A stretch of 64,000 nucleotides of DNA from Acholoe squamosa (lineage: Eukaryota > Annelida > Polychaeta > Phyllodocida > Polynoidae), in NCBI GenBank assembly GCA_949317995.1, contig OX439047.1, forward strand, positions 482,501 through 546,500, in the 5' to 3' direction. Position 1 is the stretch's first letter; every line of letters starts with the position of its first letter. The translations under genes and the position numbers were made by a program. Below are positions 4,454 to 63,328 of this stretch, one piece after another. The notes under the pieces were generated by a model. That model was not told the DNA's origin, searched no databases, and worked only from the letters and a program-made list of their open reading frames with translations.

Positions 4454-4672
4454 GCCATGCATGCCTTGTACAACCTGGACCAGCAGCCGAGCGACTCAGC
4501 CATGGCCATGTGGGTGCAGCGTCACGCCTCGTCCAGCCTGACTAAGTTTGAGCACCTCATGGCGCTCGGCAGCTCACAGCCGCTCACCTTCAGCACTGAG
4601 ACCAAGGAGAAAGAGATCAAGGCCTACGTAGACCCTGAGAATCAGTTTGAACCTGTTGACAAACTCTCACAG
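4454..4672 (+). CDS. Beta-carbonic anhydrase, internal exon
   Basis: This 73-codon exon follows the acceptor TTGTATTGTAG and ends at CTCTCACAG before a GTTGGT donor, in phase 0 at both ends. The product reads AMHALYNLDQ and continues through SSLTKFEHL to DKLSQ. In beta-class carbonic anhydrases a segment of this kind follows the second zinc-ligand pair (H-x-x-C), so the zinc site itself should lie in exons upstream of the window. The enzyme family catalyses reversible CO2 hydration; in animals it is often mitochondrial, but no targeting peptide is visible here. The next exon (9004-9207) joins in frame. The exon start is the seed of the minisatellite to its left. The family call rests mainly on the next exon. 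Confidence 0.75.
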
Positions 4673-9578: not shown

Positions 9579-11120
9579 CACTGTTAAAAAAACAATTAGG
9601 TGTATATGAGGACAAGCTGTCCATGACTAGATAGTAGCAACTGTTGTAAAGACTCAATTCATAAACTGGGATATGTATATATCCAACTAATCCACAATAA
9701 GGCGTTCTGTGAAAACATGTTTCTAAACCTTTGATTATTTAACTACCTACCCTCTTTTCCATCCCTACTTTAAATCCTTTGGGTTTTGTGGAGAAAACAA
9801 TTTCTTGGGGTTCATGAAGAAAAGAAAAATGGAAAATATTAAGGACCCCAATGATGAAATGAGCATCAAAATGTACAAAAAATTACATACACAAATATTC
9901 TGAACGTTACCTTAAGACAACAATTTCCCTCTTTTTGGATTGATTTGAATCATTATTGTAGGTATTGCTATGGGGCCATCCATAAATGACGTCACACAAA
10001 ATTTGACCATTTTTGACCCCCCACCTTCCTCACATTTTTTGTCAAATTTGCAATGCTGAAGGTATATGGAAAATTAATTCTGTCACGCAGAGCCTGACCC
10101 CCCCCCTCCATCCCCCATCATTTGTGGATGCCCTCCAGGCTTTATTTGTTGACAGTTTTAGCATGAATGTAGAAGATTGTGCTATTGTCTGGTGTTGTGG
10201 TGATTTTGTTGATGAATAGTGCATAATCATGAGTATTGATGTATACAAAATTTGGGATAGACCCCAGAGTAAGCGGATATAGAGAGCCTGCGGCAAGTTT
10301 TGCATTGCTGTGCTTTATATTGTGTGCTGCCAATTAGAACCAAAGATACCCTGGTAATTATTTAGAGAATAGACAACGATCTGTCTGTTGTCCTATAATG
10401 CACGCAGATGCATTCGTGACACAGACAGTCTTGATGTGAAGAAGAAGTACATTTCATTCCAATCTCTTAAATACCCAATTAAGGTATGTCTAGACCAATT
10501 AATGGCCCTTGACTTGTTTACAGCTATGGTGACCTTGCTTAGGTGTGCACTACACTCCTATAATGCACTCAAGATATTCTTCATGTTGAGGTCTCGAGCC
10601 TTATGAAGGCCCTCAATCATTTTGCGTTATAGTCCAACAGAGTCAAGACATGAAGAATGAGTTGTCTATTGTCTTTATAAAACGTGTTAGCATTTTCATC
10701 ACATTGATTAAAAGTCTTAAGCCTCTGATATCCCACTGGAAGGATAGACAAGCCGTGACCTTGCTCAGGTGTGCGCTGTACTCCTATAATGCACTCAAGG
10801 TCACTTCTACCGTGCAGCAGTGCATGGGCTGCCGTTTTATAACATGCAGCAATGCACTACCAACCGTTTTATATTGATGACCAATGAAACAGGAGGATTG
10901 ATTGTAGACAGTTGGACAAATCTTGATGTGTGTATACATTGTATTGATTTATGTTGTATTATAAGTGCATGTTTGAGTGCAGGCGTCTCAAATTAGGTTC
11001 CATATAGCGCGGTATCGTTTCCTTGAGCCCTGGTAACACTATAATGAGGCTTATAACATCCTCTCTAACTCAAGGTACGGCTTATACGAGGGAATTCACA
11101 GGAGTGCTGCATCCAGTCAA
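9579..11120 (+). other. Intergenic stretch with transposon fragments
   Basis: No gene is visible. At 9972-10125 the sequence GGGGCCATCCATAAATGACG and a C-rich follow-on look like the terminus of a dispersed DNA-transposon repeat. At about 10388-10620 and 10640-10870 there is a diverged tandem duplication sharing a TCCTATAATGCACTCAAG block. At 11050-11100, CCTCTCTAACTCAAGG with CGGCTTATACGAGGGAATT is a small relative of the right end of the element at 34393-39809. Confidence 0.5.
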
Positions 11121-13046
11121 CAACCAAGGGTAGACATGACGGAGGCATTGTGACCAATGTGATAATGAGTGAACACATTACAACCAAGGGTGCACATGAT
11201 GGAGGCATTGTGACAAATGTGAAAATTAGTGAACACAGTACAACCAAGGGTGGACATGACGGAGGCATTGTGACAAATGTGAAAATTAGTGACAAATGTG
11301 ATAATTAGTGAACACAGTACAACCAAGGGTAGACATGATGGAGGCATTGTGACAAATGTGAAAATTAGTGAACACAGTACAACCAAGGGTGGACATGACG
11401 GAGGCATTGTGACCAATGTGAAAATTAGTGAACACAGTACAACCAAGGGTGGACATGACGGAGGCATTGTGACCAATGTGAAAATTAGTGAACACAGTAC
11501 AACCAAGGGTAGACATGACGGAGGCATTGTGACCAATGTGAAAATTAGTGAACACAGTACAACCAAGGGTGGACATGACGGAGGCATTGTGACAAATGTG
11601 AAAATTAGTGAACACAGTACAACCAAGGGTGGACATGACGGAGGCATTGTGACCAATGTGAAAATTAGTGAATACAGTACAACCAAGGGTGGACATGATG
11701 GAGGCATTGTGACAAATGTGAAAATTAGTGACAAATGTGAAAATTAGTGAATACAGTACAACCAAGGGTAGACATGATGGAGGCATTGTGACAAATGTGA
11801 AAATTAGTGAATACAATACAACCAAGGGTAGACATGACGGAGGCATTGTGACAAATGTGAAAATTAGTGAACACAGTACAACCAAGGGTAGACATGACGG
11901 AGGCATTGTGACCAATGTGAAAATTAGTGAATACATTACAACCAAGGGTGGACATGATGGAGGCATTGTGACAAATGTGAAAATTAGTGAATACAGTACA
12001 ACCAAGGGTGGACATGACGGAGGCATTGTGACCAATGTGAAAATTAGTGAACACAGTACAACCAAGGGTAGACATGACGGAGGCATTGTGACCAATGTGA
12101 TAATGAGTGAACACAGTACAACCAAGGGTAGACATGACGGAGGCATTGTGACCAATGTGATAATGAGTGAACACAGTACAACCAAGGGTAGACATGATGG
12201 AGGCATTGTGACCAATGTGAAAATTAGTGAATACATTACAACCAAGGGTAGACATGACGGAGGCATTGTGACAAATGTGAAAATTAGTGAATACAGTACA
12301 ACCAAGGGTAGACATGACGGAGGCATTGTGACAAATGTGAAAATTAGTGAACACAGTACAACCAAGGGTGGACATGACGGAGGCATTGTGACCAATGTGA
12401 AAATTAGTGAACACAGTACAACCAAGGGTAGACATGACGGAGGCATTGTGACCAATGTGATAATGAGTGAACACAGTACAACCAAGGGTAGACATGACGG
12501 AGGCATTGTGACAAATGTGAAAATTAGTGAATACAGTACAACCAAGGGTGGACATGATGGAGGCATTGTGACCAATGTGAAAATTAGTGAACACAGTACA
12601 ACCAAGGGTAGACATGACGGAGGCATTGTGACCAATGTGATAATGAGTGAACACAGTACAACCAAGGGTAGACATGACGGAGGCATTGTGACAAATGTGA
12701 AAATTAGTGAATACAGTACAACCAAGGGTGGACATGACGGAGGCATTGTGACAAATGTGAAAATTAGTGAATACAGTACAACCAAGGGTGGACATGACGG
12801 AGGCATTGTGACCAATGTGAAAATTAGTGAATACAGTACAACCAAGGGTAGACATGACGGAGGCATTGTGACAAATGTGAAAATTAGTGAATACAGTACA
12901 ACCAAGGGTGGACATGACGGAGGCATTGTGACCAATGTGAAAATTAGTGAACACAGTACAACCAAGGGTAGACATGATGGAGGCATTGTGACCAATGTGA
13001 TAATGAGTGAACACAGTAAAACCAATGTGATAATGAGTGAACACAT
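11121..13046 (+). repeat. 60-bp minisatellite, about 32 units
   Basis: Near-perfect 60-bp units (ACAACCAAGGGT(A/G)GACATGA then GGAGGCATTGTGAC(A/C)AATGTG and AAAATTAGTGAA(C/T)ACAGT) run head to tail. Two short units near 11289 and 11728 shift the frame. Because 60 is a multiple of 3, the array gives long open frames on both strands (586 and 444 codons). I treat these as artefacts of periodicity, because every frame repeats the same 20 residues and no start context or flanking gene structure exists. Confidence 0.95.
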
Positions 13047-13922
13047 TACTTTACTCAGTTAATGAGTTTATACAGAAATGTTATACTGTGTATTCCTTGT
13101 GCACAGTTCACAGTTTACCTACTGTACTCATGTATCATGTCTATTAGTTGTAATGATGTGTCAATGTAGCCGTCTCGAGTCTCCTCGCATCACAGTGAAC
13201 CTTCAGGGGTACCGGCATTCACACTGTACTTCCAGTATGTGAGTAATGTAGTGAAATGCTTTTCCCTTTATTAGACAACTATATTATCCGCCTTGCTTGA
13301 TCATGCTTAATTAAATGCAAACTATTATTCATTATTTACTATATACATCTGTTATTGTTGGACTCATGTCTTAGTCTAGCAGTTTATATTATATTAAATG
13401 TAGTCAACTGGTTGATATAAAATAAGAAGAGTAAATATTTATGGCTACGTCTTGTTTACATTTACTAAAACACCAATGTATTTGCTCCTTAGAATGTGGC
13501 CCGGTCCCACCAAATGAAGATCAGTGATAAGTCTATTGAGTGAGCTTCTATTGCATCTATATTCACCAGAGCTATGTTGTCATGTATATCAACCTACAAC
13601 TAAATGATACCACTGCTGCTCTTCAAATACTGCCAACAGAATTACGTTTGTTTTTGTTTCCAAAAGTAAGTGTACTCACAATGAATGAAAATGTAGGAAG
13701 ACTCATATGTACATGATAAATAAATGTTTAAATAAAATGCTTTATTAACCAGCTTTTGTTTTACATGTATGTTTTCTCATTTTGACAGATGAAAAATAAT
13801 TATTCAAAAAACTCTGCACAAGTTTATACATATTTTATTTAAAAGATCACTTGTGTTCACAAATTTGGTTGTCAGCGCTTTGACTCTGTTGAGTCTTGTA
13901 CAGGACTTTTTCACACAAATTA
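13047..13922. other. Intergenic AT-rich stretch
   Basis: No ORF of note, no RNA gene and no clear repeat was recognised here. It lies between the 60-bp array and a MITE, in the interval between the convergent carbonic anhydrase and CUB-CCP genes. Confidence 0.5.
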
Positions 13923-17409: not shown

Positions 17410-18943
17410 TGTCATACTAGTGATTGGCATGATCAAGTTGTCATATGAGAAATATCATAAGACTAGTGGTATATAGTGTAATTATCTCAAGGCTCTTATA
17501 AATAGTGTTATTTCCAGTTGTCACTGGTTTATTCAGCTTTAGGCAACATGTAAGAAATATCAATCATACAGTAGTTAGTATGTAGGTAATTTGTACATAC
17601 AGTAAACATACAGTAATTTATAAAGTATAATGTTCAGTTCCACTCCACCTGTGAGGTATTAATAATACAGTGTCCAGCATACTTCTAGGTGGGTTCCCAC
17701 ACCTAGCTCCTGACCTGCTGCTTAGAGGAATAATGTAATAATGGATAACTTTACCCTCTGGTGGAAGTCTTGAAGAAGATAGCCTCTGGCCACTAATGGT
17801 AGGAAACCAATGCCTGTCTAGCATAGTTAGTTAGTTAGTTAGTGTTTAACGGCACGTCAGCTACTGGTGATGGCTATTTGTGCCTAAAGGTTTTATGGAA
17901 GAAAGTTTCTACTGTTTAAATTTGACTGTAGTATCCCAGGTTCTTGACATATGCAAGTATTGTATCCGGTCTGCAGGTATCAAATAACTCTTTCAGTGTG
18001 TCTAGCATAGTTTCCCCATAGTGCAGTGGTATAGCAGGTAGCAGGAGATGACTGGAGATGTTACCTCTAGAGCGGTTCTTGGTGATGTGTCTTCCTGGAG
18101 GTGCAGGCAGGCTATTTGTAGCAAATCTTGGAAAGGCACCTCCAGACTGACTGGAGCCAGCAGCATCTGCCTAACTCTACAATTGTTTGAGGGGACCCTT
18201 TCAAGTGTCACAGGGGGACAAAGGGCCCCCATGGACGCCGCTATGGCCCCCATTGTCTTGGTCGGTTCTGCATCTTTAGACCCTCATATCTCGGCCGTTT
18301 ATGCTTGTATAACCGCCATTTTGGGCATGCGCAGAGCTGAATGTGCCAAGATTATAATGCCCGCTGGATAGGCGCGTAACTCCCGCCGGTTTGTCTGTAG
18401 CTCACTCGGAGGTCGATTCAGTCTCCATGGCGTAACTTCCTTAATACTGGGAGTTCAGCCTTGATCTTGGGCTCATTCTGACCGTCTAATTATGGGCTTT
18501 CCATAGAATTTTTGATATTTGACCTAGGTCGCTCAGGAGCGACGCTAGAGCGACCGGAAGGTTATGGCGTCGTGCTTATGTAACCCATTGTTCAGTCCTT
18601 AGAGTGCTCAGACACTCATGACGGCGTCAGCGGTGCTCAGGCACCCGTGACGGCCGGTTGCATTCACTTACAGGTTATTAATTTGTGCATTGAACCATGA
18701 GGTCGCACACTGAGACCCTCATTTTTATTATATTGTGCAGTGAACCATTAGGTCGGACCTTTTGATGTCATAAACTCAGTCTAACTGACTGTGGCTGGTG
18801 TGCAGTGGGGCATGAACGCTCTTATACAAAGTTTGAGCGCTCTTATAGCTCTTAGAACCAACCTATGTATTAATTTCATAGATATTTCTTTGATTAATAC
18901 AAAATATGTTAGAATTTATGGAACAATAAAATGGTATATCATA
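17410..18943 (-). repeat. 3' LTR of element 1 (contains a SINE)
   Basis: Direct copy of 32237-33586. On the minus strand it starts TATGATATACC and ends GTATGACA. Without the SINE at 17829-17998 and its duplicated target it is 1350 bp. AATAAA on the minus strand at 17528-17533 is a plausible poly(A) signal, about 120 bp before the LTR end. An AT-rich ATATAATAAAA on the minus strand near 18725-18735 could be the TATA element. Confidence 0.95.
17829..17998 (-). mobile_element. SINE-like insertion inside the 3' LTR
   Basis: This 170-bp insert is present in the left LTR and absent from the right one, and is flanked by the 14-bp duplication TGTCTAGCATAGTT (17815-17828 and 17999-18012). The right LTR shows the empty site. 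On the minus strand it ends GCCGTTAAACACTAACTAAC, a GTTAAAC end plus a 4-bp microsatellite tail that recalls lophotrochozoan SINEs. It landed after the LTR element did. Confidence 0.9.
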
Positions 18944-18948
18944 GAATA

Positions 18949-18961
18949 CTCCCTCTCCCCC
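18949..18961 (-). promoter_or_regulatory. Polypurine tract of element 1
   Basis: On the minus strand GGGGGAGAGGGAG lies 5 nt upstream of the 3' LTR, the position of the plus-strand DNA primer in LTR elements. Confidence 0.75.
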
Positions 18962-19199: not shown

Positions 19200-19915
19200 G
19201 GGTACAATTTTCCATTTTTTTATGTACAACATACAATTTGGCAAATAGTGTGCAATTTTGGCATTTAATATTCAATTTAGCGTGCAAATTGAACATAAAT
19301 GACAATTTCAGTGTGCAAATTTACAATTTCGCGTGTAATTGCATTCAATTGACAATTTCAGTATGCAAATATATAATTTTTGCGTACATTTGGCAATTTA
19401 AGTGTGCAAATATATAATTTTCGCGTATATTTGGCAATTTTAGTGTGCAAATATATAATTTCGCGTACATTTGGCAATTTGAGTGTGCAAATATATAATT
19501 TTCGCGTATATTTGGCAATTTTAGTGTGCAAATATATAATTTCGCGTGCATTTGGCAATTTTAGTATGCCAATGTATAATTTTGCGTTCAATTGATAGTT
19601 TCTGTATGTACAAATATAATTTTGCGTACAGCTTGGATACACATAGAAATGTTGATTTTCTAAAAATCTGACTTCAGTGTATGAATTGGGTACAGACATA
19701 CAGTATAATGTGCAACATATAATTCAAATGTAAATTGGATACAACTTACAATCTAGTGTGCAAACATACAATTTTAGTGTGCAAATTGGGTACGAGCGTA
19801 CAATCTGGTGTGCAAACATACAATTTTAGTGTGCAAATTGGGTACAAGCGTACAATCTGGTGTGCAAATATACAATTTTAGTGTGCAAAATTGGGTACGA
19901 GCGTACAATCTGGAT
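19200..19915. repeat. AT-rich tandem repeats between 3' LTR and antisense ORF
   Basis: Units of about 40 bp (TTTGGCAATTTTAGTGTGCA, then AATATATAATTT and CGCGTA) fill 19370-19620. About three 52-bp units (GCAAATTGGGTACGAGCGTA type) fill 19725-19915. No ORF of note lies here. The position, between the LTR and an antisense gene, could make this an antisense leader or control region. Confidence 0.75.
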
Positions 19916-20123: not shown

Positions 20124-20487
20124 GTGAGTATCTTAAGTAAACATGTTTTATGTCAACAATTTTCTCAACAATTTTTTTTTTTTTCATTCATTTTTCCAAC
20201 AATTTTCTTGGATACCTAAAGTGTGTTACTTTAAGTAAACCTTGGCATAGTATACAAGTGCTAGTGGGTACAAAAACTGTCTTAGTTATCTACCTGCATT
20301 CATGTATATTAATGTTAGATTTGTACAATTTTACAATTTGTAATTTGCAATTTCGCAATTTTGCGCGTATATGTGCGCATTAATCATTGATTTTTGTGAG
20401 AATACCATAGATTTTCATATTATACATCAACAAGTGGCTGTGTATATAATTTTTTTTTTTCTAATACTTTGATAATTTCATTGACAG
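20124..20487 (+). promoter_or_regulatory. Candidate intron upstream of the antisense ORF
   Basis: A strong plus-strand donor (TTG|GTGAGTA at 20124) precedes a textbook acceptor. The acceptor has a T run, a CTAATAC branch-point-like motif at 20461 and TTTCATTGACAG ending at 20487. Removing the 364 bp would place a leader exon from the LTR side next to the antisense ORF. Splicing is inferred from the sites only. Confidence 0.45.
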
Positions 20488-20710
20488 TGGAGGTGTGTCA
20501 GGAGTGAGATGTGAGTCTCCTCCCTGGTGTGCTCATGCAGTGGTGGCACTTGAGGTGTTAGGTGCCAGATTTTGGCATGTGTCTGTGGCAGTGCCTAGCT
20601 TGGTGTCAGTGGACAGTTCAGGGTGGGGGGGGGGTGTGTGTGTCCATTTAAGGAGTGTGTGGCTGGTATTGGAGCATCAGTTCCTCTCTGGAAGTCACTG
20701 CTGTAGTACC

Positions 20711-21190
20711 ATGGCCCACCTACAAGCTCTCTTCGCTCTGCCTGTCCCCCAGGTGATGGAGGTGGGGAGTCCAGCTAGGGCCCTGGTTGAGTCTAACCAG
20801 ACCATCCATTATGGGTACATAGTGAGTAATTTCAAAGAGATCATAGAGCATGGTGATGTGATGGTCTGTAATTACTCCTGCCATTATTTCCTGGGCTCAG
20901 CCTTGCGTCGGGGGGCCACTGTGGCCCTTCTGACTAGGGCCTTGGGCAGTATGGGTTTCTGGCCCATGGATTATAACCTAGGGCCGCGGGAGCGAGTGCT
21001 ATGGGATTATTTGTTGGCGGCATCCCTCCTCGATCTTGCGGCATCCGGGAATCCATCCACGGCTGCCGAGTATGGACTGGGGATGCTGGAGGCCCGGCTC
21101 GCTGAGTGGGAGCAGGATCACGGCCATATGTATGGCTCGGACTCGGCCCCGGACTCTCCCATTGATGTTGAACCCGAGGATCTGTGGTAG
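20711..21190 (+). CDS. Antisense ORF between env and 3' LTR of element 1 (159 aa)
   Basis: This plus-strand frame is opposite to gag, pol and env. The ATG has a good context (GTACCATGG). The same frame is open without a stop back to the acceptor at 20487 (20495-21190 as an uninterrupted frame). Third positions are GC-rich while the flanks are AT-rich, and the product is of mixed composition, as expected for a real protein. It contains a Cys pair (VCNYSCHYF), a central RERVLWDYLLAASLLDLA stretch that looks helical, and an acidic C-terminus (SAPDSPIDVEPEDLW). I recognise no family. The stop is followed after 47 nt by a histone-type stem-loop. The placement resembles the HTLV-1 HBZ antisense gene by position only. 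Confidence 0.55.
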   Translation: MAHLQALFALPVPQVMEVGSPARALVESNQTIHYGYIVSNFKEIIEHGDVMVCNYSCHYFLGSALRRGATVALLTRALGSMGFWPMDYNLGPRERVLWDYLLAASLLDLAASGNPSTAAEYGLGMLEARLAEWEQDHGHMYGSDSAPDSPIDVEPEDLW

Positions 21191-21237
21191 GATCCCGACT
21201 GACTGAAACCTAGGGTGTAAAAACCCGCCATCCCAAA

Positions 21238-21276
21238 GGCCCTTTTCAGGGCCGGCAAATTGTCCGAAAAGTTCTG
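21238..21276 (+). terminator. Histone-type mRNA 3'-end signal (stem-loop plus U7-type element)
   Basis: CCCAAAGGCCCTTTTCAGGG, completed by GCC to 21253, is an exact metazoan histone stem-loop: 6-bp stem GGCCCT/AGGGCC, loop TTTC, and AAA on the 5' side. Thirteen nt after the stem, AAAAGTTCTG (21267-21276) matches 8 of 10 positions of AAAAGAGCTG, the complement of the mammalian U7 snRNA 5' end as I know it. The stem lies 47 nt after the antisense stop codon and the whole signal ends 63 bp before the env stop at 21340. The 3' flank (GGCAA) departs from the usual ACCCA. Confidence 0.65.
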
Positions 21277-21339
21277 AATACTGTCTCTGATGTGTTGTCT
21301 CCTGGTGGTGGACTGGGGGCAGCCTAGGCTGTGGGCAGT

Positions 21340-23964
21340 CTAGGCTGTTTCCACAGTCACCGGGGAGGGCTGGTGGTTTAGAAAATTAGCAATAGTCTGC
21401 ATGTTTGACCTTGCGGTCTCCTCCTGTTGTTCGTCAATAATTATATCTGTTGTATTTTCCAGTGCTGTCATGGTCACCGGGCTGGTGCCACAATCATTCT
21501 GGAGAAGCATGGAGTAGTACAGTCCTTTGTTTTTAAGGGCTGGTATAGTACTGAACCTAGTGCGCCAAGGTAGGTGTATCACCTGAGGGAGGTGATAAGC
21601 AAATTCTCCTCTCTGTGTTGTTATAACTGCTGGTCCATTCCAGGTAAATATAGCCTTAGGTAGTGGGAAGGTTTTAACCACTATATCCTTATAGGTAGGG
21701 GCAGCTGCTGATTTAATCTCATCAAATTCATGTGGTATTGGCCTCAAGGGTAGCGCGAAGTTTGAGTCTCCACAATATATTTTAAAATATATTGTGGGGT
21801 TTGTGCGCTTGGCCACATTTTTCTTGCCACAGTGTGTCTGTGCAAATTTCTTAAGGTACTTCATTATTCTGTAGGCTGAGTAGATGGTCAGGGTGAATAA
21901 TATAGCAATTATCAGGGTGTGGGTTTCCTGAATTGTGAGGAAAGGGGTGTGGGTTTCCTCTGTAGGGGTTAGTTTGGTAGGATTCTTATCTGGGAGCATT
22001 TTGTGTAGGGGCAGCTCGGTGACTAGTCTGAATGCTTTGGCTGTAGGCAGGTAGGCTACAGTTCCTCCTAGTCTGTATAATTTGAGTAGTATGTATACTA
22101 TAAAAATGTGAGCTGATATCCCTAGGATGAGTGCTAAGCTTTGGAAGATTGGATGCTCTGTATCTCGACGTAGGTATGATTCCTCGTAGCGCGTTTCCAT
22201 TTCCTTATTAAGGTTGGAGGCATCTTTTAATACTGTTTTAGCAAAGGGCTCTAAATTTAGTTGAGTAATATCATCCATGATTGGATTTTCCTGTAGTTTT
22301 TCTAAGGTTCTAGAAAGGTTTACTACTGGGAAATTTGGAAGATTCTCTCTTTCATCTGGTTTGGTTTCAGAAATTTTGTTAAGTGCTGCCATGAATGGTA
22401 AATTAATTGTCTTGAGAATGTAATGAAATGATAAGGTTGAGTTACAGGGCAACCTTGTGTTTGGAAGAGAAAATTCTCCTACACTGATCGTGCACCCACA
22501 GGGTACACCTATGATTGAGTAGGACTGGGCCTTCCGGGTTTCAGACGTTTTACCATGGCAGTTGATAAAGTAATGGGGTTCATTAGTAGTGACCAGATAC
22601 TCATCTTCAGAAATGGAAATAGCATGGGTGGTAGGTGCTTGCAGTGGTGAAACTGTAAACTTGCAATGTTCCTTAATCTGTTGAGCCTGGTTAGTAAAAA
22701 TGGCTACAGGGCATGTAGGCCTGTGTTTATAGATTCTACCATTTACATCTCTGCATACCTTTACTGTAGTACCTTCACATGCCTGCATATCTGCTGAGTC
22801 CAATTCGATAAATAATGATTCATCGTAAGATACTGCTAGAAACTCAGTTGTGGTTTGTAGTTTGGTGACTCCTCTGGTGGGGGTCTCCTGTGTGTCTATA
22901 GGCATGGGTGATGTAATCATTTGGTACAGCTTGAAGGTTGAGGTGGTAGATTGAATTATAATGTCCAGATGAATATATATATGGTGAGCTGAGTAAGTGT
23001 ATGAGGTCAGCTTCTGTGAATAATAGAAATCTAAGTCATTAATTGCGACTTGTGCTCCAGGGTGTGTAATCCTAAGTTTGTTATTAATGTCAACTAGGTA
23101 TCTAGCGAGGTCTGAGGGTGGTACTATATCAGGGGTTAGGATCCCTGATGATAGCATCCTCAGGGCTGCATTTGTCCTTTGCAGTGATTGAACTGTATTC
23201 ATTCTTGCTGCTATGATAATTAGTGCATCATTTAATACTTGCATTTTCTCCCTTTGAGTTTTCTCGTGCCTTGAATATGAGTCAAGTGACCTGGACATGT
23301 TAGAGGCCCACAGGTTGACAGTGTCACCTATGGTGTTGATTGTGCTGTCCAGCACCTTCTTATCTTGGATGTATGCTTTAACAAACTTATCTTGTCTGTC
23401 TGTGATCTTTTCAATGAGACTAGCTGCTTCCTGATCTTGTTTAGCAAATTTTCTTAGTATTTCATCTATGTTCTTGAGCTGTCCCATTACTTGGTTTACA
23501 TCTTCTACTGTGGCTAGACCTAGCACACCGCGAAACAGGGGTGCTAGAAAACCCAGTATGGCCTCTCTTTTGGCCTTGTCCAATGTGTTTATGGGGTTGG
23601 ATAAGAACAATTTGATGGAGGCTAGTGTTTCATTTATCTCCTTGTCTGCAATTTCCAGCAAGGTGTCTAGCTCCTTAGCTTGTTGGATAATTTGGCCAGA
23701 GGTATGATCTTGTAGAGTAGGAGTGGTCAAATGGAGTATTCTATCCCTTATGGATCCTTGGGTAACGGGTGCCCGAGGTATCTTGTAGGGAATAGCTAAC
23801 AACAGTGTTGTGGTTGTATGTCCATTGACCAATGGTTGAGGGCTAGGTTTGAATACTACTCCTATGTTTTGTCTCACCACAGGTGTATAACCTGCAGTAA
23901 GTGGTTCAATAGTATATAATAACAGCATAGTTAGCAGTATGGGTGAAACTCTCAGTGTCCCCAT
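21340..23964 (-). CDS. env: Env of element 1 (baculovirus F-like/errantivirus-type fusion glycoprotein)
   Basis: The likely start is the ATG at 23964 in the context AGCACCATGG; an upstream TTG extends the frame by six codons only. A signal peptide (residues 1-24) is followed by a coiled-coil-rich ectodomain. The basic site KAKR (about 130-133) precedes a fusion-peptide-like stretch, EAILGFLAPLFRGVLGLA. Cysteines cluster in the distal ectodomain (PCGCTISVG, RLPCNST). A membrane span lies at about 606-629 and a second hydrophobic segment at about 683-702, followed by about 170 residues with an unusual globular-looking tail (KIYCGDSNF, TFPLPKAIFTWNGPA). Site plus downstream fusion peptide is the F-protein layout of errantivirus Envs, but 874 residues is longer than usual. 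The frame is intact. Confidence 0.75.
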   Translation of the reverse strand: MGTLRVSPILLTMLLLYTIEPLTAGYTPVVRQNIGVVFKPSPQPLVNGHTTTTLLLAIPYKIPRAPVTQGSIRDRILHLTTPTLQDHTSGQIIQQAKELDTLLEIADKEINETLASIKLFLSNPINTLDKAKREAILGFLAPLFRGVLGLATVEDVNQVMGQLKNIDEILRKFAKQDQEAASLIEKITDRQDKFVKAYIQDKKVLDSTINTIGDTVNLWASNMSRSLDSYSRHEKTQREKMQVLNDALIIIAARMNTVQSLQRTNAALRMLSSGILTPDIVPPSDLARYLVDINNKLRITHPGAQVAINDLDFYYSQKLTSYTYSAHHIYIHLDIIIQSTTSTFKLYQMITSPMPIDTQETPTRGVTKLQTTTEFLAVSYDESLFIELDSADMQACEGTTVKVCRDVNGRIYKHRPTCPVAIFTNQAQQIKEHCKFTVSPLQAPTTHAISISEDEYLVTTNEPHYFINCHGKTSETRKAQSYSIIGVPCGCTISVGEFSLPNTRLPCNSTLSFHYILKTINLPFMAALNKISETKPDERENLPNFPVVNLSRTLEKLQENPIMDDITQLNLEPFAKTVLKDASNLNKEMETRYEESYLRRDTEHPIFQSLALILGISAHIFIVYILLKLYRLGGTVAYLPTAKAFRLVTELPLHKMLPDKNPTKLTPTEETHTPFLTIQETHTLIIAILFTLTIYSAYRIMKYLKKFAQTHCGKKNVAKRTNPTIYFKIYCGDSNFALPLRPIPHEFDEIKSAAAPTYKDIVVKTFPLPKAIFTWNGPAVITTQRGEFAYHLPQVIHLPWRTRFSTIPALKNKGLYYSMLLQNDCGTSPVTMTALENTTDIIIDEQQEETARSNMQTIANFLNHQPSPVTVETA

Positions 23965-24789
23965 GGTGCTTGTGTAAAGCAAGTTTGCTGTTTAAAGTCT
24001 TGTCAAATTTGTAGTGATTTGGTGCTGGTAAAGTCTAAGTGTATGGTGTAACACTTTAAATGAAGTGGTTCAAACTGTACCTTTGCAAGATTGAGCTGTC
24101 TTGGCAATATGTCCGGTGAGTCTATAGAGGTTGACCAGTAAATGGTAAGGTCAGGTTGAAGGTGAAGTAGGTGTGTTCTTTATCCTAGTGCAGTCTCTCC
24201 TAATGGAGAAGTGGGCTGGCTAATTCCCAAGTGGGGTCCTGTAGACTTGTGTTCCAGACTGCAGCTGGATGAAGACTGATGGTGGGCTATGGTCCACAGT
24301 GCTTCTTATGTAGCCTACCCTACCCACATCCATTGTGGGCCTGGTATTGTTTCTCTGGAGTCATGTACCTAATCTCCAGTGTCTGCAACTGAGGGGTTCT
24401 ATTGTGTAATCTGTGTACTGGTAATTAGCTCCTCCTGTCATCCAGGACAGCCATTCATGACCGTCTAGACAGTTGTCTGAGTGTAGCTTATAAGGTCAAT
24501 TGATCTCTATAGACTGCTGTGTTGGCATAGCGCGCTCTTTCATGTGGGGATTAGGCTTTAGACACTCCATTGTGTTACCCTTACTCTTCTTAGACTTCAT
24601 GTCTGCTTTACTTGGGGGGTCCCAGTCTTTGACCCTTTCAGAGGCAATAACCTACTGATATATTTACAAATTTGATTGGCTTTATATACATAGTTATTCA
24701 TTATCAGTCACACATGTCTTATGTGTGGCTGAAGGGAATTTGTAATACATTTTGAAAATCTTATGTCTTTTGGTATCTCAATCCTGTTT
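23965..24789 (-). other. Pol-env spacer of element 1
   Basis: These 825 bp between the pol stop and the env ATG contain no substantial ORF on the sense strand. They probably hold the splice acceptor for a subgenomic env mRNA. ACTTTAAACAG just upstream of env is one possible acceptor. No other motif was recognised. Confidence 0.5.
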
Positions 24790-27700
24790 CTAATTTCTTG
24801 AAACTGCACCACACCTAGATGTCTTTCTTAGTATGTGGTGTGCAGGCCTAGGCTTGATAGGGCCTATGCCTGTGGTTTCTCTTGTAAGGGTGATATCATT
24901 TTTGTTCCTTACAATTTTGCTGTAGTATTTGGCCTCATGTGGAATAAGCCTGTGTGCAAATTCATTGTTTCTGACAGCCACAACCTTTTTCAGTCTGTCT
25001 ATGTGCACTGGTCTGGCCACCAATAGATTGGTGTCCAAGTTTTTGAGTTTGGCACTTGTCAAACTAGGTCTATCTACTACAACATATGGTCCCATAAAAA
25101 GGGGTTGAAGTTTCTTACACTCTGTATTGGTCAGGATTCTTGGTATGTTTAGGTACACCATGTCGGTGACCCTGATTTCCTGTGGTGTAAGTTTCTTATC
25201 ATATCTATCCTTTCTTTCCTTTTGTAGCTTGGCGACCCTTTCTATAGCTTTCCTCCTAGAGGTATCTTGATTTGTTATCATGTTGGCTACGTGGTCTGCT
25301 ACTGTGGATATGTCTTCCTGTATTCCCAGCCCTAAGTCCATTGGGGTGGCTGGGTTTCTTCCATGGAGTAGGAAAAAAGGGGTGAATCCTGTGGTTTGGG
25401 ATTCAGTGTTGTTTAATGCAAAGGTTATGGGTTCAATAAATGAATCCCAATTGTTTTGGTGCTTTGAGCAGAATGCTCTGAGTGCTGTGCCTATGCTAGC
25501 ATTGAATCTCTCTACAAGCCCATTTGATTGTGGCCTGTATGGTGAGGAGAATTTATGTTTGATCTTGAGGTGTTTAGTTAACTTTGTGAACTTTGCACCT
25601 GTATAACATGTTCCATTGTCTGTTTGAAGAGTGGCTGGTGTTCCATGATGACAAATTATATTCTTGTAGAACTCTGCTGCTGTTGTCTCAGCTTTTAAGT
25701 CAGTAGTAGCCCAAGCTGTTGCATATCTGGTAGCATAATCTATGCAGACTTGTATATGTTTGTTTCCCCTGGCAGTTGTGGGAAGTGGTCCCACCGCGTC
25801 TAGGTTTAGGAACTTCATTGGTGAAGTCATGTACTCTCTCACTGTCATTGGTGTTTTGTGTGAGTGTACTTGCCTTTTTGCTGTGAGGCATGTGTGGCAG
25901 GTGGAAACATATTTTGTTGTGTCTGCTAGCATAGACTTCCAATATACCCTAGGTCGGAGTGCTGACAGCATCCTACTTGAACCAAGATGGCCGCCGGTAG
26001 GTGAGTCATGGAAATACTGTAGTGTACTTGTTACCCATTGCTGTGGTATAACAATTTGAAGTGGTACAGTATTGGTTTTTCTCCAATTTATGGGGCATAT
26101 ATGGACTAATGTACCATTTACCAAGGTGTATGTCTGGCCTTGGTTGATGATTCTATTTCCTTGTGCTTTTGGTGCAGGCAAGGTCCCATCCTCAAGATAC
26201 TGTATGAGGGGCAATAGGTCCTTGTCTTTCCTTTGTTCCAAGCCAAGGTTTGTTCCTGAGATGGATGTGTCGGGAATCTGATCCAGTAGTTGATTTATAT
26301 CTAGCACATGTTGTTTTATTCTGTCTCTTTCTTTTTCTTTTTCATCGACTATTGGCCTATCTTGTGCCTTTTGTTGGGGTGTGTCACTCTTGTTTTGGTG
26401 TGTAGGCTCCTTTGGAGGGCCTATTTTCGCCTTAATGGGAGTGGCAACCTTTTTCTTTAAAGGCACAATTTGCTTTTTGTCATTCTTCTTTGTCTCAGAG
26501 TTCTTTGACTTAGTAGATGCAGTGTCTTTTGTGACATTTTTCCTGGCAGGTGGGGTTTTGGTAGGTTTGTTTCCTGTGACCTTTTTCTCATTTAGAATAG
26601 TTTGTGATTGTGTGGGGGGTTTTGGTGTGCCCTCCTGAATCATTTCTCTAGTCTTTGAGCGTGTGGTCATAGGACACAAATGGTTTGATGTTTCCTCTCC
26701 CTGCATAGGTTCAAAGAATCTGACTGATTTAGAAGTTGCTTGAGTAATCGCATATATTGTGTCTTCTGGATCTTCATCATCTGAGTCAGGTGGGGTGAAG
26801 GGTGGCTCCTTAGGAGTTGCCTTCACTATCTGATTGAGTGATGAGAATTCAATAGGCTCGAAGTCATTATCTGGAAAGAGTTGTGAGTATTCTCTCTCAC
26901 AGTGGCAAAACACATAGTGTGTAGATTGCTTCAAGATACCCCTAATGGGTGTCTCTGGCCTTTCAATGGTGTTGGGTGGATCATCCCTTTTGAATGGTAC
27001 TTTCTTTGTTACTTTTGCAAACTTGGTTCTACTGGCTGCTCTAACTCTCCTTGGTGGGGGTGGAGGGTTAGTCATGGGTCCAGAGTCTGGGTATTCTCTT
27101 CTAGACATAGCATCTGGTGGTGTGTTATCATCACCTTTCACGTGTTGGATGGTGAATGAAAATTGTTGTATGTCTAGAGCCCATCTGGCCCATCTATGTG
27201 TGAGTCCTGTATTGGTTAATAGTGGGATTAGGGCTGCATGGTCTGTGTATAATTGGAAGTGTCTGGTCTCTAGATAGTGTCTGAAGTGTAATACTCCATA
27301 CACTACTCCCAGTAGTTCTCTCTCTGTGGTATTGTAATTTCTCTCATGTTTTGAGAGGGTTCTACCTGCAAAGGCTACTGGTCTGAGCACTCCCTCATTA
27401 TCTCTCTGTGAGAGTACAGCTCCTAAACTCACATTGGAAGCATCAGTTGCCAAACTGAACTCTTTCTCATAGTTTGGATATCTGAGAAGAGCATTGGTAC
27501 AGAGGGCATGCTTTAATGTTTTGAAAGCATTATCTGCCTCTTCTGTCCAGACAAAGGCTTTGAGATGTGTCTGTAGATCATACAATGGTCTAGCAATTTG
27601 GGCATAACCTTTGATAAACTTTTTGAAGTATTGGCATAGGCCTGTGAAGGATCGGACATTTTTGACTGATTTTGGTGTTGGGAAGGTTTTGATTGACTCC

Positions 27701-29520
27701 ACCTTTGTGGGAGATGGTTGTAGTCCCATGGGTGTGACTCTCATTCCCAAGAAGTCTATTCTGTCTATGAAGTATTCACATTTTGATTTCTTCAGTTTGA
27801 GTTTACCAACTCTTAGGCTGTTGAACACATCTTCCAGGTCATGGAAGTGTTGTTCGATTGATGGTGATAATACCAATATGTCATCTAGGTATGGTAGGGC
27901 ACATTTGTACTTGAGTTTGTTCAGAATTAATGTGACTAGATGACAGAATCCCGCCGGTGCCGTCGCTAAACCCATCGGCATCCTTTCATAGACATATTTT
28001 TTGTCATTTGCTATGAATGCGGTTTTATGCTGATCCTCCTGTCTTATAGGAATTTGAAAAAATCCCTGTTGGGCATCTAGCTTACTGAATACTCTTGGTC
28101 TGAGTGACCCTATCATGTCTAGAGTGTCATCGGCCCGGGGTGTAGATAAGGCTTGATTTATCGTGTTCTGGTTCAAATAACGAAAATCTGTGACGAGCCG
28201 ATGGCCTCCCGATGATTTTTGTACTAAAAAGGATCTGGAGGCCCAGGGGCCCTCGGCACATTCTCTCAGAATGCCCTGTTGTACTAGCCTTTCACACTCT
28301 TCCCCTATTGCGGCCTGTTTTTCTGGTGTTTGTCTATATGGTAGGAAATGACATGGTACTGCCTCAGGTTTTACATGTATTGAGTGTGTATACAGGTGTG
28401 TGGCGCCAATGTCTCCATCTTTTCCTACAAATACATCATCATACTTGGTCAGCAGTGATTTTAATCTATCATGCTGATCTTTGGATGTGAGCACAGATTT
28501 TGGTGGAACATTCTCTTCCAATTCTGGCTCGAGGTCATGTGCCTCACTATGTATAGCAGCTATTTCAGAGAGTCTGATTGAGTTGGGTTCAGGGTCAGCA
28601 TATGTGGACTCACAGTCTGAGTCTGTGTCACTGAATTGAGTTACATCCTCAGGCCGTATGGCTGAGATGGATTGATCAGTGTGTGGGGTAGTGTCTGACA
28701 CCTGTTGAGGTTTTTCTAAATCAGATTCCTTGACTTCCTGAAATAGAGCTATGATGGCACCCTTTTTGATTTTATGTGGGCGCCTGCTGGTGTTGAGTAA
28801 CACTAGGGGATGTTTGTTATTTTCCCTGGGGGTTACTGCTGCCCTTTGAACTAGATATGGGGCATTGTTATTTCTTTGGAGGTTATCTACTACTCCAGTT
28901 TTCCCTTGCAGTGATTGAGTAGATGTTACTTTACCCAATACTGCAAGTTCAGAGAATGGAGGGATGGTAAAATCCCTCACTGCCCTAATGGGTTTGAGAA
29001 TTTGTTCAGGATCAACATTAAATTCAATTTGAGATTTTGTAGTGCTTAAGAAATCTGTGCCGAGTACAATGGGCTGTGTGAGGTTGGGTATTACAGCAAA
29101 TTGGTATTGGAATCTGACACCTTGGATTCTAAAGTTCAGCATAGCTGAATGTCTAACATGACACACCGATCCATCTGCCAAGTGGATGTTGATTTTAGAT
29201 TTCCTCAGTTGGATATGGAATCTCTTTTGGAGATCCATGAGGAATGATTGTCTGACACAGGTGATAGTAGCACCTGTATCAACCAAACATTGTACATCTG
29301 AAACATCATATAGATTTGCATTGATACAGCCATTTTGAAGAAGTACAATAGAAAGCTTGGTACTCTCACCTGTATCCTTTGATGATGAATCTGGTGGGGT
29401 GATGTGTATCACTGATGGACGTCTCTGTCTGTTAGATGGTAGATTGGCACTAGCAATTGTCTCTGGTTGGATCTTTGTTAATCCTGATTGATTGTTTGTA
29501 TTTGGGGTGTCACAGTGCAC
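24790..29520 (-). CDS. pol: Pol polyprotein of element 1 (PR-RT-RH-IN)
   Basis: The frame is -1 relative to gag and open back past the gag stop, so it is probably made as Gag-Pol by frameshifting; the GTG at 29520 is not a needed start. Residues counted from 29520 show protease DTGA (81-84) and IVLGTDFL (151-158), RT with RLVTDFRYLN and YLDD (544-547), and RNase H with TDAS (692-695), TERE and YTDHAAL. A Lys/Pro-rich linker spans about 810-1090. Integrase follows with HHCC (H1171, H1178, C1208, C1211) and DDE (D1241, D1301, E1337, 35-residue spacing), then a GPY module (FMGPYVVVDR). All catalytic motifs are present and no stop interrupts it. The linker of nearly 300 residues between RNase H and integrase is far longer than usual. 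Confidence 0.93.
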   Translation of the reverse strand: MHCDTPNTNNQSGLTKIQPETIASANLPSNRQRRPSVIHITPPDSSSKDTGESTKLSIVLLQNGCINANLYDVSDVQCLVDTGATITCVRQSFLMDLQKRFHIQLRKSKINIHLADGSVCHVRHSAMLNFRIQGVRFQYQFAVIPNLTQPIVLGTDFLSTTKSQIEFNVDPEQILKPIRAVRDFTIPPFSELAVLGKVTSTQSLQGKTGVVDNLQRNNNAPYLVQRAAVTPRENNKHPLVLLNTSRRPHKIKKGAIIALFQEVKESDLEKPQQVSDTTPHTDQSISAIRPEDVTQFSDTDSDCESTYADPEPNSIRLSEIAAIHSEAHDLEPELEENVPPKSVLTSKDQHDRLKSLLTKYDDVFVGKDGDIGATHLYTHSIHVKPEAVPCHFLPYRQTPEKQAAIGEECERLVQQGILRECAEGPWASRSFLVQKSSGGHRLVTDFRYLNQNTINQALSTPRADDTLDMIGSLRPRVFSKLDAQQGFFQIPIRQEDQHKTAFIANDKKYVYERMPMGLATAPAGFCHLVTLILNKLKYKCALPYLDDILVLSPSIEQHFHDLEDVFNSLRVGKLKLKKSKCEYFIDRIDFLGMRVTPMGLQPSPTKVESIKTFPTPKSVKNVRSFTGLCQYFKKFIKGYAQIARPLYDLQTHLKAFVWTEEADNAFKTLKHALCTNALLRYPNYEKEFSLATDASNVSLGAVLSQRDNEGVLRPVAFAGRTLSKHERNYNTTERELLGVVYGVLHFRHYLETRHFQLYTDHAALIPLLTNTGLTHRWARWALDIQQFSFTIQHVKGDDNTPPDAMSRREYPDSGPMTNPPPPPRRVRAASRTKFAKVTKKVPFKRDDPPNTIERPETPIRGILKQSTHYVFCHCEREYSQLFPDNDFEPIEFSSLNQIVKATPKEPPFTPPDSDDEDPEDTIYAITQATSKSVRFFEPMQGEETSNHLCPMTTRSKTREMIQEGTPKPPTQSQTILNEKKVTGNKPTKTPPARKNVTKDTASTKSKNSETKKNDKKQIVPLKKKVATPIKAKIGPPKEPTHQNKSDTPQQKAQDRPIVDEKEKERDRIKQHVLDINQLLDQIPDTSISGTNLGLEQRKDKDLLPLIQYLEDGTLPAPKAQGNRIINQGQTYTLVNGTLVHICPINWRKTNTVPLQIVIPQQWVTSTLQYFHDSPTGGHLGSSRMLSALRPRVYWKSMLADTTKYVSTCHTCLTAKRQVHSHKTPMTVREYMTSPMKFLNLDAVGPLPTTARGNKHIQVCIDYATRYATAWATTDLKAETTAAEFYKNIICHHGTPATLQTDNGTCYTGAKFTKLTKHLKIKHKFSSPYRPQSNGLVERFNASIGTALRAFCSKHQNNWDSFIEPITFALNNTESQTTGFTPFFLLHGRNPATPMDLGLGIQEDISTVADHVANMITNQDTSRRKAIERVAKLQKERKDRYDKKLTPQEIRVTDMVYLNIPRILTNTECKKLQPLFMGPYVVVDRPSLTSAKLKNLDTNLLVARPVHIDRLKKVVAVRNNEFAHRLIPHEAKYYSKIVRNKNDITLTRETTGIGPIKPRPAHHILRKTSRCGAVSRN

Positions 29521-29553
29521 TGGCCCATCGGCACTGTGACATCCTAGTTTTCC
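29508..29553 (-). promoter_or_regulatory. Candidate -1 ribosomal frameshift site, gag-pol of element 1
   Basis: On the minus strand the heptamer G-GAA-AAC (29547-29553) ends directly at the gag stop TAG. After 5 nt comes a perfect 11-bp stem, TGTCACAGTGC (29531-29541) with GCACTGTGACA (29508-29518), and a 12-nt loop. Heptamer, spacing, stem and the -1 frame of pol all agree. G-GAA-AAC is a non-canonical slippery site (the first three bases are not identical), like G-GAU-UUA of some retroviruses. Confidence 0.75.
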
Positions 29554-31181
29554 TGGTTCTGTGGGGTGGTTGAGATGCTTGCCACCAGGAGCTTAGAGAT
29601 TTGATCCATCACGTGAGGTGGTATTTGGGGGTTACTTTGTTGGTTCCCCTGGTAACCTCTTGTGTCCGGTTTGTAATCCTCCTGGCGTGGGTTGGAACCC
29701 TGGTTATATCGACCAGAGTTGCTGTATTGACCAGAGTTGTTGGATCTCTGATTGTTGTAGGCGCCATTGTTGTTGTAGGATCCACTGTTGTAGTTCCTAT
29801 GTGGACTCTGGCCCCTACTGTTGGATCCTTGACTATAGGATCCAGAGTTGTTTGAACCCTGGCTGTTGTTGTAGGATCCGCTGTTGTTGTAGGATCCAGA
29901 GTTGTAGTTCCTATGTGGACTCTGGCTCCTACTGTTGGATCCTTGATTATTATAGGATCTGCCATTACTTGGGGTTCTGTCTCTCCTATCACTGTATGAA
30001 GAGTTACCATTGTTGGAGTTGGAAGAGCTGTTGTCTTTCCTACTGTTGTGACCCCCCCGGTTGTTGTTGTTGCCCCCTCTACCTCTACCTCTATTGGATT
30101 GGTAGTTGGGGTCATAGTTATTTCCTCTGTATCTACCGGTAGGGTCTCTTGATGCAACCTTAGCTTCCTGTTGCCTTACATGGGCACTAGACATTAGGTT
30201 AACATCTTCATCTGAACTAGTGCTGATTTCCTGGACCTTTTTCTTAGTAGGCTGTGGGTTGGTTTCTGCATCCCTTACCTTCCTAGATCTCTCTTGGGTC
30301 TCAACCTCTAGGGCTAGGTCTAGGGCTTGGTCAAAAGAGTCTATTTTCTTGTTCTCAAGAGCTATAGAGATCCAGGGCCTCATGCCTTGGGTAAATGCCT
30401 TGCTTAGGGTTTCATCATTCTGGCGTTGGGCATTACACACTTTCCTGAGATGGCATGCATAGTCTAGAACAGGTTCATCTATCTTTTGTGCACGGAGTGC
30501 AGTCCTTGAGATTATATTGTCTCGAGTAGCAAAATACTCTTTTAATTTATTCACTACATTGGTCCATGTCAACATATCAGGTGTGGCACTCTCCCTGAAG
30601 GATTCAAACCAAGCTAGTGCTTGTCCTTCGAGGTACTTGGGTAAATATGTTACCATGGTGTCACTGTCTGTCACTTTGTACTTATCCTTCAGATATTCTG
30701 GGAATTTGTGATCAATGAATAATGCTGTTGACATGAGTGGTGATGGGTGTGAAAAGGTTTTGGGTTTTGTTACCTCATGTATCCTGATCTTTCTGTCGTC
30801 CTGCTGTTTATTGTCTATGAGCTTGGTCATGTTGGACACCATGGAGATTATGATGTCATCTTTGGATCCAGAGGCAGATGGTGTGACAACAGGTGTGATG
30901 GCAGGTGTGGGAGGTTGTGGGGTCTGGGATGATACCATCTTCATGAGATCTGCTATCTGTTGTTGTTGTCTCTCTAGGGACTTCCGCTGATCTTCCATGG
31001 CCTTCTGTTGAGCATCTATTGCTGCATTCCTCTCTGCCAGTTGTTGGTTGAGGATCCTCTCCCTTTCCTCCTGCTGGGACTTGTTGGTCTCTAGGGCAGT
31101 AACTGCATCTTGGATGGCCTTCTCATAGGCCCTTATCTTCTCAGCTGTCTGATTAGGTTGGGGGCCTTCATCGGTGTCCAT
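29544..31181 (-). CDS. gag: Gag of element 1 with Arg-Gly/Asn-Ser-rich tail and no zinc knuckle
   Basis: A 545-residue frame from an ATG at 31181. Residues 15-85 form a charged, Gln-rich coiled coil. Residues 150-300 match the retrotransposon gag capsid region (YLEGQALAWFESF, TWTNVVNKLKEYF, FTQGMRPWI). From about 350 to 530 the protein is low-complexity: RGRGRGGNNNNRGG, then repeated NSRGQSPHRNYNSGSYNN blocks. There is no C-x2-C-x4-H-x4-C knuckle, so the RG-rich tail probably does the RNA binding. It overlaps the open pol frame near its stop. The coding strand is the same as pol and env. Confidence 0.9.
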   Translation of the reverse strand: MDTDEGPQPNQTAEKIRAYEKAIQDAVTALETNKSQQEERERILNQQLAERNAAIDAQQKAMEDQRKSLERQQQQIADLMKMVSSQTPQPPTPAITPVVTPSASGSKDDIIISMVSNMTKLIDNKQQDDRKIRIHEVTKPKTFSHPSPLMSTALFIDHKFPEYLKDKYKVTDSDTMVTYLPKYLEGQALAWFESFRESATPDMLTWTNVVNKLKEYFATRDNIISRTALRAQKIDEPVLDYACHLRKVCNAQRQNDETLSKAFTQGMRPWISIALENKKIDSFDQALDLALEVETQERSRKVRDAETNPQPTKKKVQEISTSSDEDVNLMSSAHVRQQEAKVASRDPTGRYRGNNYDPNYQSNRGRGRGGNNNNRGGHNSRKDNSSSNSNNGNSSYSDRRDRTPSNGRSYNNQGSNSRSQSPHRNYNSGSYNNSGSYNNSQGSNNSGSYSQGSNSRGQSPHRNYNSGSYNNNGAYNNQRSNNSGQYSNSGRYNQGSNPRQEDYKPDTRGYQGNQQSNPQIPPHVMDQISKLLVASISTTPQNQEN

Positions 31182-32236: not shown

Positions 32237-33586
32237 TGTCATACTAGTGATTGGCATGATCAAGTTGTCATATGAGAAATATCATAAGACTAGTGGTATA
32301 TAGTGTAATTATCTCAAGGCTCTTATAAATAGTGTTATTTCCAGTTGTCACTGGTTTATTCAGCTTTAGGCAACATGTAAGAAATATCAATCATACAGTA
32401 GTTAGTATGTAGGTAATTTGTACATACAGTAAACATACAGTAATTTATAAAGTATAATGTTCAGTTCCACTCCACCTGTGAGGTATTAATAATACAGTGT
32501 CCAGCATACTTCTAGGTGGGTTCCCACACCTAGCTCCTGACCTGCTGCTTAGAGGAATAATGTAATAATGGATAACTTTACCCTCTGGTGGAAGTCTTGA
32601 AGAAGATAGCCTCTGGCCACTAATGGTAGGAAACCAATGCCTGTCTAGCATAGTTTCCCCATAGTGCAGTGGTATAGCAGGTAGCAGGAGATGACTGGAG
32701 ATGTTACCTCTAGAGCGGTTCTTGGTGATGTGTCTTCCTGGAGGTGCAGGCAGGCTATTTGTAGCAAATCTTGGAAAGGCACCTCCAGACTGACTGGAGC
32801 CAGCAGCATCTGCCTAACTCTACAATTGTTTGAGGGGACCCTTTCAAGTGTCACAGGGGGACAAAGGGCCCCCATGGACGCCGCTATGGCCCCCATTGTC
32901 TTGGTCGGTTCTGCATCTTTAGACCCTCATATCTCGGCCGTTTATGCTTGTATAACCGCCATTTTGGGCATGCGCAGAGCTGAATGTGCCAAGATTATAA
33001 TGCCCGCTGGATAGGCGCGTAACTCCCGCCGGTTTGTCTGTAGCTCACTCGGAGGTCGATTCAGTCTCCATGGCGTAACTTCCTTAATACTGGGAGTTCA
33101 GCCTTGATCTTGGGCTCATTCTGACCGTCTAATTATGGGCTTTCCATAGAATTTTTGATATTTGACCTAGGTCGCTCAGGAGCGACGCTAGAGCGACCGG
33201 AAGGTTATGGCGTCGTGCTTATGTAACCCATTGTTCAGTCCTTAGAGTGCTCAGACACTCATGACGGCGTCAGCGGTGCTCAGGCACCCGTGACGGCCGG
33301 TTGCATTCACTTACAGGTTATTAATTTGTGCATTGAACCATGAGGTCGCACACTGAGACCCTCATTTTTATTATATTGTGCAGTGAACCATTAGGTCGGA
33401 CCTTTTGATGTCATAAACTCAGTCTAACTGACTGTGGCTGGTGTGCAGTGGGGCATGAACGCTCTTATACAAGGTTTGAGCGCTCTTATAGCTCTTAGAA
33501 CCAACCTATGTATTAATTTCATAGATATTTCTTTGATTAATACAAAATATGTTAGAATTTATGGAACAATAAAATGGTATATCATA
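32237..33586 (-). repeat. 5' LTR of element 1
   Basis: 1350 bp, identical by eye to the left LTR except G at 33473 and the absence of the SINE. It starts TATGATATACC and ends GTATGACA on the minus strand. It holds the promoter and poly(A) signals described for the 3' LTR. The flanking GGAC at 33587-33590 is the target duplication. Confidence 0.95.
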
Positions 33587-33590
33587 GGAC

Positions 33591-49378: not shown

Positions 49379-49393
49379 GTACATGATACTGAC

Positions 49394-63253: not shown

Positions 63254-63325
63254 AATAGCAGGCTGAGAGCCTACTATTACATACAATAGCACATAGGTGT
63301 GTCTGATCAGAGTGTTATCTCTTGC

Positions 63326-63327: not shown

Positions 63328-63328
63328 A

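Follow-up and report, generated by a model that had tools for sequence, protein, structure and literature searches.

A young Ty3-type LTR element of 16.2 kb, located on the minus strand of the window (the whole stretch of 64,000 nucleotides of Acholoe squamosa DNA analysed here), very probably carries a protein-coding antisense gene whose mRNA would be ended by the replication-dependent histone pathway of the host. This reading rests on the combination of an ORF with the marks of purifying selection, a fixed place after env and a 3' signal that matches that of the host. Antisense accessory genes are known as a kind; the novelty is the 3' end, which resembles that of histone mRNAs. Histone-type 3' ends are regarded as almost exclusive to replication-dependent histone genes, and we know of no earlier mobile-element gene with such an mRNA end. 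Among open-licence papers, searches judged by title and abstract opening brought up none that describes an end of this type in a gene of a mobile element.

The 5' LTR of the element (32237..33587) forms a direct repeat with two parts of the 3' LTR (17410..18944), namely 17410-17828 (419 bases, 100% identity) and 17999-18944 (946 bases, 99.9% identity). The two parts are separated by a 170-bp insert (17829-17998), which begins with a GTTAGTTAG repeat and appears SINE-like by eye. Because the LTRs are so alike apart from this insert, the insertion of the element is young. The gag ORF (545 residues, 29544..31181) matches the Ty3 capsid, and the domains of the pol ORF (1576 residues, 24790..29520) follow the order protease, RT, RNase H and integrase. 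A polypurine tract recognised from its sequence (18945..18961) adjoins the 3' LTR. The LTRs, the polypurine tract, gag and the domain order of pol place the element within Ty3/gypsy (Metaviridae). The third large ORF (880 residues, 21340..23982) is called env-like from its position and from a possible likeness, by eye, to F-type env; it has no Pfam match over the cut-off and no relatives in IMG/VR. All of these features map to the minus strand. The 2.4-kb stretch that separates the env-like ORF from the polypurine tract has, on its sense strand, no ORF of at least 120 residues with a usual start; the longest stop-to-stop frame on that strand measures 128 residues. A second Ty3-type element, with 29% identity over the matched part of pol, is found on the plus strand at 57786-64000; tblastn revealed no relative of the antisense protein alongside this element or locus L088.

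The putative antisense gene features an ORF of 159 codons (20711..21190, plus strand) with a conserved start and an acidic C-terminal end. As an earlier note on this DNA had claimed, the ORF lies opposite to gag-pol-env, between the env-like ORF and the 3' LTR, a position like that of HBZ; it is GC3-rich, starts in a good context (ACCATGG) and belongs to a long frame, which is open stop-to-stop from 20465. The GC content by codon position is 0.63/0.43/0.64, and the GC3 of 0.644 compares with 0.38-0.51 in env, pol and gag. Five intact antisense ORFs have stops in all of the other five frames. A plus-strand frame of at least 241 codons occurred in 5 and 8 of 3000 simulated 2.4-kb stretches, and a frame of this length on either strand in 64 and 81 of 3000. 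The length of the frame by itself is only moderately unusual and is not used as evidence.

No relatives of the antisense protein were found among 5.8 billion predicted proteins, either with the single sequence or with an alignment of six sequences, and none were found in IMG/VR. A sequence search of the PDB returned a single match (E 0.12). The protein of the window has no match in Pfam; two of six relatives match Rpn9_C (best E 0.08), the only Pfam match among them. HBZ carries a bZIP domain, and the lack of a Pfam match sets the antisense protein apart from HBZ, to which no relationship was found. AlphaFold2 models are mostly helical and of low confidence, with a mean pLDDT of 44.2 for the sequence alone and 54.6 with six sequences. 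A Foldseek search of the PDB with the model gave 22 matches, the best at E 1.1, and no fold is claimed. The product would be a small, probably helical accessory protein.

Downstream of the ORF, the plus strand features a composite signal. A CCCAAA flank (21232..21237) precedes the histone-type stem-loop GGCCCT-TTTC-AGGGCC (21238..21253), which begins 47 nt after the stop, and the box AAAAGTTCTG (21267..21276), which resembles a histone downstream element, follows 13 nt after the stem. The end of the box is separated from the stop of env (21276 to 21340) by 63 nt. The arrangement is exactly that described in the earlier note. The stem-loop fits the consensus GGYYYT..ARRRCC, with a stem of 6 bp, a loop of 4 nt and CAAA ahead. 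For the bare 16-nt pattern, 0.11 occurrences per window are expected by chance; 10 of 100 shuffles contained it, and none of the 100 contained it with CAAA in front. The Rfam Histone3 model gives the signal 23.5 bits (E = 7e-4, 1.2 kb against 4227 families). This score is below the gathering score of 34, as are those of the host core histone ends (17.8-23.1 bits).

The earlier note had proposed comparing the box with the U7 snRNA of the species; the comparison with the species' processing signal was made through its histone genes, and flank, stem and AAAAGTT all turned out to be shared. One host histone unit (L140, about 4.9 kb) contains H3, H4, H2B and H2A together with a 5S rRNA gene. The four core histone genes end in CAAA-GGCCCT-NNNN-AGGGCC, with AAAAGTT 12 nt after the stem, and their stems start 28-46 nt after the stop, as against 47 nt in the window. 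In the host H1 genes (L096, L103, L104 and L114) AAAAGTT is found at +13 three times and at +14 once. In the element box, AAAAGTT is at +13, so that its distance from the stem exceeds that in the core histones by one base. The element thus shares with host histone genes the CAAA flank, the 4-nt loop and an AAAAGTT 12-14 nt after the stem, and with the core histones the GGCCCT/AGGGCC stem itself. The antisense gene differs from host histone genes in encoding a protein other than a histone, in residing in a mobile element, in apparently being interrupted by an intron, and in the shift of the box by 1 nt relative to core histones. Histone3 scores of host H4, H2B and H3 are 23.1, 19.6 and 17.8 bits, H2A not being listed at E <= 1; the window (23.5 bits) scores no lower than the host core histones, and six relatives score 21.4-34.3 bits, the highest being L099. 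Judged by the host's own standard, the element signal is an ordinary putative histone 3' end. A search for the host U7 snRNA gave seven sub-threshold matches, the best of which reached 25.9 bits (E 1.04) against a cut-off of 34.

The host genome (1.48 Gb, 63 contigs) contains many copies of the antisense gene. The best 150 of 1670 first-look candidates are full length and free of stops, 138 being 100% and 12 being 99% identical in protein sequence. Such near-identity among the best-scoring copies shows that the family is young and is not a sign of selection. For the nucleotide alignment, 78 copies picked by best protein score were added to the window (79 rows), leaving out the window's own copy (L014) and L046, which was excluded throughout. 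The stem-loop varies at 1 of 16 positions and the preceding spacer at 12 of 41, and the sole variable position (C21253T) leaves a G.U pair. The earlier note had allowed that other copies might lack the ORF or break the stem freely; neither is seen in these samples of young copies. The 27-nt box 21232-21258 includes two variable positions (Fisher p = 0.035 against the spacer, p = 0.054 against the intron body).

Intact relatives of the antisense ORF, which are 48-72% identical, keep the frame. A Histone3 search of the host genome had 291,945 first-look candidates, of which 75 were scored; it listed 71 matches, and 26 of these places were examined. Nine of them are relatives of the antisense ORF (tblastn, 37-65% identity in matched pieces) and four are histone H1 genes, leaving 13 without an assignment. 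The ORF is open in five of the nine (L099, L100, L105, L107 and L108), where it starts at the methionine used in the window; the L099 and L100 proteins stop three residues past a common tryptophan. Downstream of the signal, the stem-found relatives share the env end of the window, which indicates that the antisense gene occupies the same place. Pairs of the five open relatives and the window show dN/dS values of 0.08-0.21, with dS of about 1 or more, and saturated in several cases, in all pairs except the near-identical L099 and L100. Ka/Ks in other copies had been suggested as a check on the ORF, and these divergent intact relatives bear the ORF out, while the signal is lost in some copies, as described below.

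Since this first set had been found by its stem-loop, a second set was drawn by protein similarity. The L105 protein (48% identical) served as query, the best 150 of 1661 candidates were scored, and 20 of them were chosen by hand for variety; places on the Histone3 list were omitted, which if anything lowers the yield. An exact stem-loop is found 41-47 nt after the stop in 11 of the 20. Seven have a slightly changed stem-loop (L120, L121, L123, L124, L126, L127 and L132), and two have lost it, either the stem (L134) or the whole 3' end (L125). Among the 11 exact-stem relatives, eight carry AAAAGTT at +13, L122 and L135 have AAAGGTT, and L130 lacks the stretch. A strictly intact full-length ORF is present in seven of the 20. 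Their stems are exact in L128, L129, L135 and L137, changed at one position in L121 and L123, and absent in L134. Compared with the window, the seven give dN/dS values of 0.09-0.21 (dS 0.87-4.24, often saturated, and unreliable above 2). Over the 23 pairs of the protein-found sample with dS above 0.1, the median dN/dS is 0.17 (range 0.06-0.68). These ratios show purifying selection on the predicted coding frame, which, as far as codon substitutions can tell, is strongly selected across the relatives.

Conservation of the signal was assessed in a 3'-end alignment not selected for the stem, comprising the window and 19 of the 20 protein-found relatives (L125 was left out). The spacer and the linker have mean majority-base frequencies of 0.73 and 0.77, respectively; the stem-loop reaches 0.89 and AAAAGTT 0.94. 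The comparison of element and host signals included only rows with an exact GGCCCT/AGGGCC, and stem conservation there is thus a product of the choice of rows. No compensatory stem changes were found in the family, and the stem letters are invariant among exact-stem relatives, so that covariation, a check suggested in the earlier note, speaks neither for nor against the stem. Some observations count against a histone-type end: three strictly intact relatives (L121, L123 and L134) lack the exact stem, the box is displaced by 1 nt from its core-histone position, and dN/dS rises to 0.68 in some pairs.

Upstream of the ORF, a candidate intron (20124..20487, plus strand) is delimited by the donor TTG|GTGAGTAT and the acceptor CATTGACAG|TGGAGG; the leader of a candidate exon 2 (20488..20710), placed from the acceptor at 20487, would precede the ATG. 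The donor at 20124 is the best plus-strand donor of the stretch; L043, which had no exact anchor, was left out of the analysis that placed it. In the young copies, substitutions affect 3 positions of the 57-nt donor block and 70 of the 292 positions of the intron body (p = 0.0007), and one or two copies have deletions in the block. The AG at 20486-20487 is invariant in the 79 rows. The strong acceptor that the earlier note placed ahead of the ORF is present, but it is not the strongest: a rival acceptor ending at 20540 is conserved too, and outscores it on a crude scale. Among the relatives, L099, L108, L128 and L133 have the acceptor CATTGACAG|TGGAG, and L131 has it with one change. L128 and L133 also carry the donor, which does not rank among the top sites in L099, L108, L107, L105 and L131; only parts of the upstream regions of L105 and L107 match that of the window. 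An exon-intron structure of the antisense gene is likely from these patterns. To our knowledge, metazoan replication-dependent histone genes are free of introns. An intron in a gene with a histone-type end would be unusual, and counts against the explanation that we favour.

The place of the signal is compatible with a different function. Both the ORF and its histone-type end may be real, with the end serving only to stop antisense RNA before it reaches env, or acting as an SLBP/U7 decoy, and with S-phase timing being incidental. In the window, and in those examined relatives whose sequence extends far enough, the signal separates the ORF from env. Moreover, no poly(A) hexamer is found within 2.7 kb downstream, AATAAA and ATTAAA being absent from the plus strand over 20488-24000, an absence that also speaks for the favoured explanation. 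Set against this, the coding part is strongly selected, and in known animals ends of the histone type are linked to S phase. We consider this alternative rather unlikely, but it is the strongest competitor.

Conservation also bears on the possibility that the element once captured a host histone 3' end and that the stem-loop is its disused remnant. Its letters are the same as those of the host signal, and the stems of several relatives are damaged (9 of 20 are not exact). However, the stem-loop and the box have changed less than the spacer and linker, in young copies as well as in old subfamilies, and the signal persists in relatives with nearly saturated synonymous sites. A dead relic, which we regard as very improbable, was rejected on these grounds. 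Even less probable is an action of the hairpin on the sense strand, for instance in genomic RNA. The reverse complement forms a hairpin (GGCCCT-GAAA-AGGGCC) with a GAAA loop at least 63 nt past the env stop. Yet the sense loop also reads AAAA or TACA in relatives, so that a GNRA loop is not kept, and both the CAAA flank and the fixed spacing of AAAAGTT are features of one strand only and agree with host histones; the sense-strand reading was rejected for these reasons. Finally, a chance meeting of an open frame with a histone-like hairpin, for which the moderate rarity of the frame and the expected frequency of the bare pattern might speak, can be practically dismissed, since divergent subfamilies with low dN/dS share the composite signal and the host histone genes match it.

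For the histone-type end of an antisense mRNA, the following course of events would apply. Transcription would start in or near the 3' LTR or in the AT-rich repeats before 20124, and the transcript would be spliced. SLBP would bind the stem-loop, and the U7 snRNP would pair with AAAAGTT. As the distance between a histone stem and the cleavage site is about 5 nt, cleavage would occur some 5 nt after 21253. The mRNA, devoid of a poly(A) tail, would be exported and translated with SLBP and would be abundant only in S phase. The element could benefit in two ways, as a small accessory protein would be supplied during DNA replication, and antisense RNA would be ended before reaching env. The broader account towards which we lean is that a Ty3-type clade with several old subfamilies, one of them at chromosome ends, took over histone pre-mRNA processing for one S-phase accessory protein.

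Antisense genes at the 3' end of the element are described for HTLV-1 (hbz) and HIV-1 (asp) in PMC10186651. According to this review, transcription of the known retroviral antisense RNAs begins within the 3' LTR or close to it, and these RNAs are poorly polyadenylated and, for HTLV-1 and HIV-1, are nuclear. The antisense gene reported here is likewise at the 3' end, between env and the 3' LTR. In contrast, its element is of the Ty3 type and not a member of Retroviridae, and its mRNA would have a histone-type instead of a poly(A) end. Additional ORFs are also known in plant Ty3/gypsy LTR elements, in papers where antisense is a frequent term (PMC7264820, PMC11963269). These are plant elements, set beside ours by description, and the titles and abstract openings of the two papers do not mention a histone-type end.

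If the histone-type end is real, a mobile element ties its antisense gene to the clock of DNA synthesis, with no need for poly(A). The gene would then reveal how the SLBP/U7 pathway acts on a foreign mRNA, and would represent a way round the poor polyadenylation and nuclear retention of known retroviral antisense RNAs. Because mRNAs without tails are invisible to poly(A)-selected libraries, similar genes may have been overlooked in other genomes.

One antisense-gene subfamily has a distinct chromosomal distribution. Thirty-four Histone3 matches have the same score (34.3 bits) and, where checked (L099 and L100), represent a single subfamily; the 32 others include C3:32342, C16:7555 and C12:78525601, and further places agree with the protein-based search. 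Thirty of the 34 map to large contigs, all of them at most 340 kb from a contig end, and are found on 17 of 18 large contigs. This subfamily is subtelomeric.

The same signal may serve other genes of the host genome that do not encode histones. At L098, L109, L112, L115, L101 and L106/L113/L116 there are histone stem-loops, mostly followed by AAAAGT after 12-14 nt, which adjoin neither a recognised histone gene nor the antisense ORF. Four ORFs near these stem-loops have no Pfam match over the cut-off, and the loci may be further non-histone users of the predicted signal. A repeat found at L091-L095 features a stem-like GGCCCTTTTTAGAGCC (23-25 bits with Histone3) and no long ORF ahead; at L091, the one checked, no AAAAGT box is present. 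The host H1 genes L096, L103, L104 and L114 carry two or three stem-loops in a row, the last of which is GGTCCT/AGGACC.

Repeats are abundant in and around the element. AT-rich tandem repeats of 40-52 bp with TATAATTT words, located between the antisense gene and the 3' LTR (19267-19913), form a tract that differs in length among copies and is a possible antisense promoter region. Long tandem arrays occupy positions 1-4483, 11117-13062, 34464-39781, 46998-47478 and 48463-49383 of the window, and frames of about 440-590 codons are open on both strands of the array at 11117-13062.
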